From: a virus
Direction: 5' to 3' (one strand)
DNA: 35,350 bases
IMG/VR virus record: IMGVR_UViG_3300042291_000886
Location: 1-35,350 of that record
Positions 31,022 to 35,350 of the stretch are shown in pieces; position 1 is the stretch's first letter, and each line of letters opens with the position of its first letter. The position numbers were made by a program, and so were the translations under genes. The notes beneath the pieces are model-generated. The model did no database searches. It saw only the letters and a program-made list of their open reading frames with translations, and had not been told where the DNA came from.

Positions 31022-32095
31022 CTAAAATTGTTTTTTAACTGTATTGATTATTGTGGATATCTCGTCATCAGTCAGCCATGCATGAATGGGCAAAGAAATT
31101 ATTGTGTCAGCTACTAATTTTGAATTTACACAATTATCTTTTCTATATTGGTGTGTGTTGTACATGCCATTTTCAGACAAGGGTTTTTCGTAATGCACAC
31201 TGGCTTTCAAGGCATCTTTTACACGCTTTCTAACATCTTTATTTTGAAATCTAATGGTATATTTATGGTAGTTATGGGACAGCCCTTCTTGACCCTGCTG
31301 TGTAAAAACTGGCAAATCTTTAAACGCTTGATTGTACTGTTGCGCAATTTGTTGACGTCTTGCTTGATTCCTTTCGGCATTTTGCAGTCGAAGATTAATA
31401 ACTTCAGCGTTAAGCACATACATACGACTGTTAAATCCCAGCATCTCAAAATCTTTATCTTTGCCGTGACGCCTAATCTTTTTGACCAACTTTGCTTTGG
31501 ATTCGTCATCGGTTAGGAAAACACCTCCGCCATTAATCCCCGAAATCACTTTGTTGCTGTTAAAGCTGTAGACACTACAGTCGCCGATGGTGCCTGCTCG
31601 AACATTGTTTAGACTTGCTCCCAAGGCCTGAGCAGCATCTTCAAAAAACACTAGGCCTTTTTCTTTACAAAACTCTCGAATCTCAGTGGTATCTGTCATA
31701 TTACCAAAAAGGTGTACATATACAATTGCCTTGGTCTTTTCGGAATACATTCGTTTGATGCTGTCCAGATTCATGTGATAGCTGTCTAGATCTATTTCAC
31801 AGAACACAGGTGTAGCACCCACATGACTCACACAGGCAGCTGAAGTAATCCAACTGAAGTCTGTCACAAGTACCTCGTCACCTGCACCAATGCCATATGC
31901 CAATAGTGCAAAGTGCAGTGCATCGGTGGCACTGGCCACACTGACTGCATACTTGCGACCTACCCGTTTGGCAAAACTTTCTTCCCAGGCTTCGTTGTTT
32001 TCGTAGTTGAGTTGCGACATAAATCTGTCGAACAGGTCTAGATATGCCTGTTTGTTTTCTTGGTACTCTCGGTCCCAGCCGTCATATGATGTCAT
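31022..32095 (-). CDS. DegT/DnrJ/EryC1/StrS aminotransferase
   Basis: 357 aa, standard length. PLP Lys182 in SFNSNKVISGINGGG, the FEDAAQALGAS motif (151-161), and VSVASATDALHFAL and YVHLFGNMTDT blocks are diagnostic. Family enzymes aminate keto-sugars (nucleotide-linked) for O-antigen, capsule or antibiotic sugars. Here no sugar dehydratase or epimerase is adjacent. It lies between two radical-SAM paralogs, so the substrate may be a carbonyl created by one of them. Overlaps 32092-32838 by ATGA. Confidence 0.93.
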   Translation of the reverse strand: MTSYDGWDREYQENKQAYLDLFDRFMSQLNYENNEAWEESFAKRVGRKYAVSVASATDALHFALLAYGIGAGDEVLVTDFSWITSAACVSHVGATPVFCEIDLDSYHMNLDSIKRMYSEKTKAIVYVHLFGNMTDTTEIREFCKEKGLVFFEDAAQALGASLNNVRAGTIGDCSVYSFNSNKVISGINGGGVFLTDDESKAKLVKKIRRHGKDKDFEMLGFNSRMYVLNAEVINLRLQNAERNQARRQQIAQQYNQAFKDLPVFTQQGQEGLSHNYHKYTIRFQNKDVRKRVKDALKASVHYEKPLSENGMYNTHQYRKDNCVNSKLVADTIISLPIHAWLTDDEISTIINTVKKQF

Positions 32096-32838
32096 AGTGA
32101 TTCCAATTTTTTATGTGATATCTTGCGCCAAAGATCAAGGCTTTTGGATTTATAGCCCCAGTACTCTTTTTTAACTCTTTCTTCAGTGTGTTTCTTATCG
32201 GGACTGGTCAAGGTAAAATCCACACTTTTTCTCAGCAGGGGATTGTCTGATCTGAATCCTCTGTTGGTGTTTATTAACAGTAGACTAAAATCTTCTTGTT
32301 TGGCAATTTCTATAGCACGATCTATTTCGTGTTCATTGTAGCCAAAAATAATGTATTGCCACACTATGACATGTCCAAGATCTCTACCCTGCTGCATACG
32401 CTTCCAAACGTCTTCAAAGTTTGAACCCACACGATACAATTCACTCTTTTTGTCAATGCCGTCTACACCAAAGTACCAGGCGTTTTCGCCCACACCATAG
32501 CTGTAGGCTTCGTCCCACCAGGCATCACTTTTGCCACTGCCCACTGTGGCAATCCTAATGGCCTTGCCCTGTCCGTCGCACATTTTCAACAGCTTGAGAA
32601 AGTTGGGATGATAGATAGGGTCAGATATTTGTCCGCAGAAGGTGATACCATTGTCATAGTAATCCAGTATCTTTTTAAAATTGTGTTCTTCCAGATCAAA
32701 GGATCTACGTATCTGCTCTTGGCTGGAAGTTTTTTGACGTATGCACTGGGGACACTTGAACACGCACCTGTGTGACGTATCTATGTTAGGTCGCACAAAT
32801 CGTTGATACTTGACATAATCATCAGTTATTCTTGCCAT
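32092..32838 (-). CDS. Radical SAM core protein lacking its own SPASM domain
   Basis: 248 aa. Cluster motif HRCVFKCPQC (Cys25, Cys29, Cys32); ITFCGQISDPIYHPNFLKLL and WYFGVDGIDKKSELYRV plus VWQYIIFGYNEHEIDRA match the 30390-31013 paralog. The C-terminal 50 residues are basic and lack the Cys set. It is preceded by its SPASM-like partner (32822-33172), which overlaps by 17 bases, and followed by the aminotransferase with an ATGA overlap. Confidence 0.9.
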   Translation of the reverse strand: MARITDDYVKYQRFVRPNIDTSHRCVFKCPQCIRQKTSSQEQIRRSFDLEEHNFKKILDYYDNGITFCGQISDPIYHPNFLKLLKMCDGQGKAIRIATVGSGKSDAWWDEAYSYGVGENAWYFGVDGIDKKSELYRVGSNFEDVWKRMQQGRDLGHVIVWQYIIFGYNEHEIDRAIEIAKQEDFSLLLINTNRGFRSDNPLLRKSVDFTLTSPDKKHTEERVKKEYWGYKSKSLDLWRKISHKKLESL

Positions 32839-33172
32839 TGGCCTGCTCCTTTACTTCAATTCGTTCCTCGTCTCTAACTGCGTTTTTATCTATGTCTACC
32901 CCGCACTTCTTTTTGCACATATATGAAGCATTTTCAGGATCCGTTAGCAGTGTCTGAAAAAAGTTTTCCCACTGATCAGATGCAAAAATATCTTCCAATC
33001 TGTCATTACGAGATAACAGTAGTTCCTCATCTTTTAGGCCGCACTGTTTGACATAGCGATAGACCGGGGGATCGTCCAGCCAGCAACAGGGCAGCATGTA
33101 TCCGTCTGATGTGTATGCAGCCCCTTTGTTATCTGTGGATCTATAGTTGAGGCATTTGGGTTTTATTTTCAT
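32822..33172 (-). CDS. Stand-alone SPASM-like Cys protein
   Basis: 116 aa. Cysteines 7, 29, 30, 44, 86 and 90 (PKCLNYRS, LPCCWLDD, KQCGLK, YMCKKKC). The CLN ... G-Y-x-L-P-C-C-W-x-D and C-x-x-x-C pattern matches the 30071-30397 protein, and TSDGYMLPCCW matches SPASM segments of radical-SAM enzymes. Six Cys could hold one or two 4Fe-4S clusters. Overlaps the downstream core radical-SAM gene by 17 bases and the upstream putative glycosyltransferase by 4. Confidence 0.75.
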   Translation of the reverse strand: MKIKPKCLNYRSTDNKGAAYTSDGYMLPCCWLDDPPVYRYVKQCGLKDEELLLSRNDRLEDIFASDQWENFFQTLLTDPENASYMCKKKCGVDIDKNAVRDEERIEVKEQANGKNN

Positions 33173-34023
33173 TGTAATTGCTCTAGGGCAGCCAGTATTG
33201 GTGCTGCATCGGGTTCTGCTATATCACGTGTGTAGTACACACTACCCCCGTCATGTATGGCAGGGTCTCTTAGGTAAATCAAGCCCTTGTTGAAATATTT
33301 ACATTCTTGCACAATTCTAGGGGCTGGGTCAAATGTTTCTTTCACATACACATAGGTATCAAAGATACCCAGAAGGTTTTCTACGGGTGCAAATATGTTG
33401 TTGTAGTTGATGTTAACATATTTTTCACGATAGGTCAATATGCCATGGTCAGGGTACTGATCAAGAAACTTTTCTGCTGTGGCATAGTATTGCTCATTAG
33501 AGCCCTGGAATAGATATCGAAATTGAACACTGTCCGTGTGGGGTTTGTACAGTGCAAAATTGATGCGCTTTTCAAAATGCAGCCCCTGACCCTCAGGGTA
33601 GACTTCTCGATCACATAGATCCACTACCTGCTGGGGCCTGTAAAACGCCAGGGCCTGTGGGTAGAGTTCAGGGTGGTTTTCAGAATACACACTGATCACC
33701 CTTGAGCCAAATACTGATCGCAGGGTCTCCTGCTGGGTGCTGTTATAGTCTTTGAAGGCCTGCCAGCTGAGTGTGATCATGCTGCGACCCATAACCAGGG
33801 TGACATCATTGGGATTGGGCTGATACTGATCAAACACCACGTGTTCAAATAGGGTATACTTGTTGGTAATTGCAGTGCGATAGCTAGAGGGAGTGTAGCG
33901 GCGATGGCTGACAATGATCAACCTAGCTGATATACCCAAACTATTCAAGAGACAGCAGTATTCGTAGCTGTAGTATAACAAGCCGTCAATGGGTTTGCTG
34001 GTGCATATGATGTTAACAGTCAT
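33169..34023 (-). CDS. Putative glycosyltransferase (GT-B-like)
   Basis: 284 aa. The N-terminus MTVNIICTSKPIDGLLYYSY then ARLIIVSHRRYTPSSYRTA looks like a GT-B nucleotide-fold domain, and the C-terminal KETFDPAPRIVQECKYFNKG resembles the F-x-P-x-x-R-x-x-x-E-x-x-x-x-x-K donor-binding helix of GT-B enzymes of phages. A donor and acceptor cannot be assigned; glycosylation of DNA bases or of a surface sugar is possible. First gene of the island; a TTAAATAC late promoter with leaderless spacing precedes its ATG. Confidence 0.65.
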   Translation of the reverse strand: MTVNIICTSKPIDGLLYYSYEYCCLLNSLGISARLIIVSHRRYTPSSYRTAITNKYTLFEHVVFDQYQPNPNDVTLVMGRSMITLSWQAFKDYNSTQQETLRSVFGSRVISVYSENHPELYPQALAFYRPQQVVDLCDREVYPEGQGLHFEKRINFALYKPHTDSVQFRYLFQGSNEQYYATAEKFLDQYPDHGILTYREKYVNINYNNIFAPVENLLGIFDTYVYVKETFDPAPRIVQECKYFNKGLIYLRDPAIHDGGSVYYTRDIAEPDAAPILAALEQLQ

Positions 34024-34027
34024 CTAG

Positions 34028-34033
34028 TATTTA
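34028..34033 (-). promoter_or_regulatory. Late promoter TAAATA with leaderless spacing
   Basis: Minus strand CAGTTAAATACTAG runs into the ATG at 34023, four bases between core and start codon; predicted start near 34022. It begins the island. Confidence 0.6.
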
Positions 34034-34086
34034 ACTGAGCTGTTAACTCTACCAGCCACGAAGTGGTAGCGAAGCTGCCAAAATTT

Positions 34087-34302
34087 TCAAATCAAATCCA
34101 GGTTATACTGACGTGTGAGTTCGGGATAGGCCAAAGCAAACAGCACTTGATATTCAACGGGTACAAAGTAGTCTATACAGTCATTGCGTATGGAGATATG
34201 GCCTCCGTGTCGCTGTACAAAACTCCATACAGCTTCACAGTCATAGTCGTGTGTCCAGGCCTGATAACGATAGCAAACAGCAGTGACTTCAGAATGTTGC
34301 AT
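34087..34302 (-). CDS. 71-aa phage protein, unknown function
   Basis: MQHSEVTAVCYRYQAWTHDY opens it; then CEAVWSFVQRHGGHISIRND and IDYFVPVEYQVLFALAYPEL. Soluble, aromatic, His-rich; Y-F-V-P-x-x-Y-Q-V-L-F-x-L-A-Y is likely a beta-helix-turn pattern. No family recognised. It is taken as real because of the late promoter with exactly five bases to the ATG, as at 11099 and 14552. It lies leftward of the non-coding repeat region. Confidence 0.62.
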   Translation of the reverse strand: MQHSEVTAVCYRYQAWTHDYDCEAVWSFVQRHGGHISIRNDCIDYFVPVEYQVLFALAYPELTRQYNLDLI

Positions 34303-34307
34303 AGTGT

Positions 34308-34313
34308 TATTTA
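34308..34313 (-). promoter_or_regulatory. Late promoter TAAATA with leaderless spacing
   Basis: Minus strand GATGTAAATAACACT runs into the ATG at 34302. Predicted start coincides with the A of the ATG. Confidence 0.55.
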
Positions 34314-34416
34314 CATCAAAAGATTACAGAACGATTATAGTGATCTAAACCCAAATACGCACATAGGCCCCGCTGCTGATAAAGAGTGTATGTGTGTATT
34401 AGCGAGTGTGAGTATA

Positions 34417-34464
34417 TGTATAGTATACACAACAGTGAGCGCAAGGTGTTGACTATACTATACA
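34417..34464. repeat. 18-bp inverted repeat, 12-base loop
   Basis: Left arm TGTATAGTATACACAACA (34417-34434) and right arm TGTTGACTATACTATACA (34447-34464) pair at 16 of 18 positions around GTGAGCGCAAGG. A substantial hairpin in RNA or a cruciform in DNA. Confidence 0.75.
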
Positions 34465-34554
34465 GTGTGTGAGTGAGTGATCACGCTGGGGGGTCAGCGA
34501 GTTGACTCTGGCAGAACAACCATATTGGCACAAGGCCCCGCTGCTGAGTATTAT

Positions 34555-34591
34555 GAATTATAGTGAATTATGGAGAACTATCGGGAATTAT
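34555..34591. repeat. Four GAATTAT-type units at 10-bp spacing
   Basis: GAATTAT at 34555, 34565 and 34585 and GAACTAT at 34575, each exactly ten bases apart, so all lie on one face of the helix. Confidence 0.8.
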
Positions 34592-34666
34592 ACTAGAACA
34601 CAGTGTATAGAGTGGGAGACTGGGTGGCACCATTTGAACTATGCCTCATCAACCACGGTTCTCGAA

Positions 34667-34693
34667 AGTGCAAAATAGTGCAATAAAGTGCAA
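34667..34693. repeat. Three AGTGCAA units at 10-bp spacing
   Basis: AGTGCAA at 34667-34673, 34677-34683 and 34687-34693, followed by an inverted TTTTGC end. Looks like a short iteron array. Confidence 0.8.
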
Positions 34694-34753
34694 TTTTGCC
34701 CACCAAACGATGGAAACGGCCTAGTTTACAGGCTGGTCTAACGGTGCTACCAG

Positions 34754-34760
34754 TATTTAT
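34754..34760 (-). promoter_or_regulatory. Possible late promoter GATAAATA facing the repeat region
   Basis: Minus strand TAGATAAATACTGG. It points leftward into the non-coding repeats; no gene starts nearby, so it could make a non-coding RNA or a long leader for the 34302 gene. Confidence 0.35.
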
Positions 34761-34847
34761 CTACACTAAATCCACGGTGAAATAGCAGCGACTCTTCACT
34801 ATATAGGACCGAGATCCCACTATACACACATAGGCCCCGCTGCTTGA

Positions 34848-34864: not shown

Positions 34865-34870
34865 TAAATA
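34865..34870 (+). promoter_or_regulatory. Late promoter TAAATA
   Basis: CAGTAAATACACTACTAGGAG; predicted start 34876, 12-base leader containing AGGAG (34878-34882) before the TTG at 34888. Confidence 0.5.
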
Positions 34871-34887
34871 CACTACTAGGAGCGACC

Positions 34888-35115
34888 TTGTCACAGAATC
34901 ACATTAAGGCCATAGCAGATCACATACAGGGCACTGTCTCAGTGCTAAATCCACACGGTGATACCAGACTTAATACCTTATATACACAGGGATTCATACT
35001 GGGACATCTGGCATCAATCTTCTCAAACGATGCCATACTCTACCGAGAGTTCCTGGAACACTGTGAACATCTTGCTCAAAAACAACACAAAAAGATTGAC
35101 ACGCACCGTAAATGA
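34888..35115 (+). CDS. 75-aa phage protein, unknown function
   Basis: Starts with TTG, preceded by AGGAG at 5 bases (the ligase start uses the same signal). MSQNHIKAIADHIQGTVSVL is the beginning, then TLYTQGFILGHLASIFSNDA and LYREFLEHCEHLAQKQHKKI. It is helical, basic at the end, with one Cys, and no signal peptide. I recall small phage proteins with the same HIKAIADHI-type helix, but no function. A consensus early promoter for the next gene lies at its 3' end. Confidence 0.62.
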   Translation: MSQNHIKAIADHIQGTVSVLNPHGDTRLNTLYTQGFILGHLASIFSNDAILYREFLEHCEHLAQKQHKKIDTHRK

Positions 35116-35124
35116 TCATATAAT
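35096..35124 (+). promoter_or_regulatory. Consensus sigma70 promoter TTGACA-17-TATAAT
   Basis: TTGACA 35096-35101 and TATAAT 35119-35124, spacer 17. About 40 bases of leader with TAGGAG before the ATG at 35167. Confidence 0.85.
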
Positions 35125-35166
35125 AAGTATATGCTGAAGAAAAGGCAGTTAAGTAGGAGCAGAGAC

Positions 35167-35350
35167 ATGACATTACCAGATGAAAGATACCGTGCAGTCA
35201 AGGCAGCAGCACAGTTTCTAGCACGACTAGCGGGTGGGGAATATCCCCGTGTGCCCAAGGCAGTTCGTGCAGAAGCTCGCAGCGTGTTGAGACACTATCC
35301 ACTAGACTGGGATTTGAAGCAGGCAGCTGATGCAGCGCCACACGTATTCC
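35167..35350 (+). CDS. BPSL0761-family protein, 3' end outside window
   Basis: 61 codons read to the window edge with no stop: MTLPDERYRAVKAAAQFLAR, then PRVPKAVRAEARSVLRHYPL, then DWDLKQAADAAPHVF. It matches the small BPSL0761 family of proteobacteria: M-T-x-P-x-E-R-x-R-A-V, F-L-x-x-L, V-P-x-x-V-R-x-E-A-x-x-L-L-R-H-Y-P, ending A-P-x-x-F. Members are of unknown function and common in beta- and gammaproteobacteria. The sequence looks richer in G and C than the phage average. Its first 22 coding bases equal those of the 10210-11013 gene. Probably only a few codons are missing. Confidence 0.8.
   Translation, partial: MTLPDERYRAVKAAAQFLARLAGGEYPRVPKAVRAEARSVLRHYPLDWDLKQAADAAPHVF

Follow-up and report, generated by a model that had tools for sequence, protein, structure and literature searches.

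The 35,350-base virus record IMGVR_UViG_3300042291_000886, referred to here in its entirety as the window, carries near its right end a gene-free stretch of ~585 bp with two short repeat arrays, A and B, a conserved core between them and three copies of a 13-base motif, M. The best reading of this locus from sequence comparison is a single cis-acting nucleoprotein site, and we tentatively propose that it may serve as a replication origin of a clade of large T4-superfamily phages. We infer protein binding, cooperativity and origin function as follows: subunits of a phage protein would line up along one face of the helix beside the core, each on its own 10-bp unit, with the array units bound cooperatively; the core would be recognised or opened, and replication would start where a block of small genes with higher GC content begins. 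The one-turn period of the repeats, their fixed register to the core, the single copy per genome and the lack of RNA covariation together argue for such a protein row on duplex DNA.

Phased arrays and a conserved core

Array A comprises four GAAYTAT units (GAATTAT at 34555, 34565 and 34585, and GAACTAT, with one T>C change, at 34575) and array B three identical AGTGCAA units (starts at 34667, 34677 and 34687), both with a period of exactly 10 bases. An earlier note, made from the letters of the window alone, had placed the units and their period just so, and they were found accordingly. Nowhere else in the 35-kb window do three identical 7-mers stand in tandem at a period between 7 and 14, as they do in array B, and array A is the sole four-unit array at up to one mismatch (periods 9–11); 150 dinucleotide-preserving shuffles of the window gave no three-identical-7-mer array and no four-unit array at period 10. 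As the same note had claimed, no supported open reading frame (ORF) lies between the flanking minus-strand gene (to 34302) and plus-strand ORF (from 34888). A GTG ORF at 34063–34452 was judged spurious, as it overlaps the conserved minus-strand gene.

The core pattern, ACCATTTGA-N5-GCCTC-N5-CCAC, was matched in 54 viral contigs, whereas bacterial and archaeal genomes totalling 257 Gb yielded only two matches, both probably fortuitous. One 57-kb record (L003/L045) includes the window sequence and extends beyond it. Conservation in relatives, and of the 10-base period in particular, had been named in the earlier note as a check, and both are seen: L047, with 81% identity over the region, keeps arrays A and B, as does L051, array B is retained in L066, L068 and L070, each of which starts or ends inside the region, and the period and its register to the core persist in distant relatives. 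We are nearly certain that the arrays are real and conserved, and their retention indicates that they are under selection. The array search also returned two unrelated contigs (L044 and L046) with GAACTAT arrays of period 10 followed by CAATTATGG repeats, and other single matches that look independent.

Array B lies directly upstream of the core in most relatives and downstream of it in the window, L047, L051 and L098. Across 22 distinct sequences, NGTGYR units occur at −6, −16, −26 and −36 relative to the core, and often further, with 3 to at least 6 units per relative. In nearly all units the final two letters are TG or CA. GTG never varies in the three core-nearest units and hardly does in the fourth, and the linkers vary more than the units. 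Variants of this layout include L084, with eight units upstream of a slightly different core, L061 (a 209-kb record), in which a GAAYTAT array takes the place of array B beside the core, and L175, L189 and L195, which have a different repeat in the core-adjacent position. When 28 distinct relatives were taken together, lag-10 self-matching reached 377 against 40.6 expected in shuffles (z 37), with further peaks at lag 20 (z 22) and lag 30 (z 14).

Dozens of related phages have the locus, each in a single copy. In the 57-, 209- and 280-kb records, the core and each array type present are confined to it, and array B, detected in 9 of 13 records, is likewise found there at this locus only. Since arrays and core are single-copy, their behaviour is origin-like rather than regulon-like. 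The large element-bearing records of 209 and 280 kb encode a Gp23-type major capsid protein (G019, G005), which places the clade in the T4 superfamily; no capsid gene falls within the window fragment. The nearest cultured phages by capsid are Sinorhizobium phage Phosso and Pseudomonas phage PA5oct. No period-10 array was found in PA5oct, nor in 140 of the 141 kb of Pelagibacter phage Mosig.

A candidate origin and its rivals

We prefer an origin for two reasons: the locus has no second copy in the genome, and T4 oriE has comparable unexplained repeats, namely evenly spaced 12-nt repeats that are conserved in related phages without a proven role (PMC3016281). The likeness lies in an evenly spaced cluster of short direct repeats, conserved among relatives, in a T4-superfamily phage (PMC3016281). 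However, the units of T4 are 12 nt long, a length not found here, where the period is 10 bp; the present locus combines two kinds of unit with a conserved core and with M motifs on the flanks; and origin activity has been mapped in T4, whereas here we propose it. In T4, active origins are found close to switches in transcription (PMC3016281), and in the window and L047 the element likewise has minus-strand genes on one side and plus-strand genes on the other. Iteron-type origins also carry several direct repeats at even spacing, as this locus does, and in the plasmids RK2, P1 and R6K, direct-repeat binding depends on helical phasing (PMC4980987). Helically phased direct repeats are thus shared with plasmid iterons, but those typically measure 17–22 bp, compared with the 10-bp period here, where neither an adjacent Rep gene nor a low-stability region was detected. 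The origin of PLE1, a Vibrio cholerae phage satellite, similarly carries repeats in a gene-free stretch, to which a dedicated initiator binds (PMC8263062); the units described here differ in being short, asymmetric and direct. The earlier note had seen in the 10-base period the geometry of iteron, partition or multi-subunit operator sites; the comparison supports a helically phased multi-subunit DNA site, with these three as candidate kinds.

Several results weigh against an origin. A skew change, which the earlier note had put forward as a check, did not materialise: in three records GC skew tracks the coding strand, third-position skew has no switch and no strand-independent switch was found, so skew was dropped as origin evidence. 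Nearest-neighbour stability revealed no easily melted DNA beside the arrays (largest z 1.6 in the window, 33 relatives ordinary), no DnaA boxes were found near the element, their count in the window being at chance level, and no initiator gene was recognised adjoining the site, where many small genes have no family. Furthermore, the strand divergence seen in the window and L047 is not general, since several relatives (L080, L082 and L098) have small plus-strand ORFs to the left of the element as well (by eye).

The main rival, close behind an origin, is a transcription control region, in which the phased arrays would be bound cooperatively, as operators or activator sites, to turn the rightward small-gene block on or off; we consider this possible, if less probable. 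The element does adjoin that rightward, GC-richer block, which carries transfer RNAs (tRNAs), and M motifs and sigma-70-like promoters follow one another (TTGAC-N-TATAAT within 130 nt of M in 38 of 120 contexts, against a background of 8%). A weak promoter-like match also spans M2 (34525–34554), within chance expectation. Yet the arrays stand at no other promoter in the genomes examined, no ORF lies between the core and M3, and no conserved promoter was recognised in the core. Improbable by comparison is another kind of single-copy cis site, such as a packaging start (pac) or a centromere-like segregation site. Strong conservation in single copy would suit such a site, as would a surplus of nearby contig ends: of the 54 core-bearing contigs, 12 terminate no more than ~120 bp from the core where 1.3 would be expected, 11 of the 12 ends falling upstream. 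Against a pac site, these ends scatter over ~30–114 bp, and assembly branching in sequence common to co-occurring strains explains them readily and is probably what they represent; the terminase gene was not found in G001 or G002 and lies tens of kb from the element in G019, G005 and G008; and four records (57, 45, 209 and 280 kb) carry the element away from their ends, for which reason a fixed genome terminus was rejected. No partition genes were recognised nearby, in a neighbourhood that is annotated only in part.

If the locus were a structured non-coding RNA, or a regulatory element acting as RNA, this would account for conserved gene-free sequence and for the long hairpin that the earlier note had reported. 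The hairpin is real, but examination of five relatives turned up no inverted repeat like it, and it was dropped as part of the element. The sequence has no Rfam match, RNAalifold detected no pair with changes on both sides among 19 relatives and, for a set of 11 divergent ones, predicted no structure, and an exact 10-base register belongs to duplex DNA. The absence of covariation therefore favours a DNA-level element, and an RNA element, now very improbable, was dropped. Least credible of all are chance or slippage repeats without function: short tandem repeats can originate in this way, and clades differ in array type and side, but GTG is kept while linkers differ between units, and the register to the core is kept in divergent phages.

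Should the locus be an origin, it would provide a comparative handle on the start of replication in large T4-like phages, a group in which the function of the repeats at T4 oriE has yet to be defined (PMC3016281). Its combination of a conserved core, swappable 10-bp iteron arrays and an invariant, strand-locked 13-bp cassette border could represent a phage origin architecture not described before and common to uncultured large phages of this clade, a claim of novelty that we make with reserve.

The M motif

The GC-rich 13-mers that the earlier note had seen dispersed in the region proved to be copies of one motif, AGGCCCCGCTGCT, at 34365, 34533 and 34832, where 0.09 copies would be expected for the 14-mer searched at up to two mismatches. 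The consensus of M is W-GGCCCCGCTGC-D; the search required the 11-mer GGCCCCGCTGC itself, and the base preceding it was always A or T in 120 distinct contexts. One-mismatch variants are rare. Between 2 and 4 copies surround the core, with others 8–17 kb further along, and exact copies occupy one strand only within each record. Most are intergenic and stand at gene ends, some overlap small ORFs, and many have the end of a gene before them and a TTGACA-TATAAT promoter after them.

By sequence comparison, M behaves as the border of exchangeable small-gene cassettes: L051 and L047 share 91% identity before M3 and 97% identity in the gene that follows, but are unrelated from M3 up to that gene's promoter. 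The closest analogue by layout, for M only, is the stoperators of mycobacteriophage L5, which are likewise asymmetric ~13-bp sites, intergenic and oriented with transcription (PMC9283540). M differs in its nearly unvarying 11-bp heart and in its clustering at one locus and just downstream; moreover, stoperators are bound by an immunity repressor that stops transcription, and for M the likeness is one of layout. No description of M was found in the literature searched, and exact copies were absent from PA5oct, Phosso and 140 of the 141 kb of Mosig. Being unusually exact and strand-locked, M would point to a phage-specific boundary system at the DNA or RNA level.

Neighbouring genes

Table 1. 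Features of the locus and its surroundings in the window
Feature	Position	Strand	Remarks
71-amino-acid (aa) ORF, left of element	34087..34302	−	Conserved; 82% identity in L074/L047 contig
Boundary motif M1, AGGCCCCGCTGCT	34365..34377	+	Fixed 11-mer, same strand, >20 relatives
Imperfect inverted repeat, 18-nt arms, 12-nt loop	34417..34464		Arms 89% complementary
Boundary motif M2, directly upstream of array A	34533..34545	+	Motif match
Array A, GAAYTAT x4, period 10	34555..34591	+	Present too in L047, L051, L061
Conserved core ACCATTTGAACTATGCCTCATCAACCAC	34629..34656	+	Between arrays A and B
Array B, AGTGCAA x3, period 10	34667..34693	+	Family consensus NGTGYR-N4
Boundary motif M3, downstream border of core element	34832..34844	+	Motif match
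75-aa ORF, TTG start, in exchangeable cassette	34888..35115	+	L051: unrelated sequence instead
Perfect sigma-70-type promoter TTGACA-17-TATAAT, before BPSL0761-family gene	35096..35124	+	Motif match
BPSL0761-family gene, 5' part (MTLPDERYRAV...)	35167..35350	+	NF041728, E 4e-17; conserved right neighbour

The protein of the conserved right neighbour, a member of the BPSL0761 family, was modelled as all-helical with confidence (predicted local distance difference test, pLDDT, 87.8). It was dropped as a candidate array binder, its model having no solved-structure match. In Pfam, the BPSL0761-family ORF fragment at 35131–35349 matched the primase DnaB-binding domain just below threshold (19.6 bits, cut-off 20.6). 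In the G001 record (L231:14788-15036), tRNA-Met, tRNA-Leu and tRNA-Arg come immediately after the BPSL0761-family gene.

To the left of the element, window positions 31022–34023 encode an aminotransferase, a radical SAM-type protein and a 284-aa protein whose nearest cultured relative is in Pelagibacter phage Mosig (51.5% identity). TAAATA-type sequences resembling the T4 late promoter core were noted by eye near gene starts, at 34021–34036, 34302–34318, 34752–34762 and 34867–34873.
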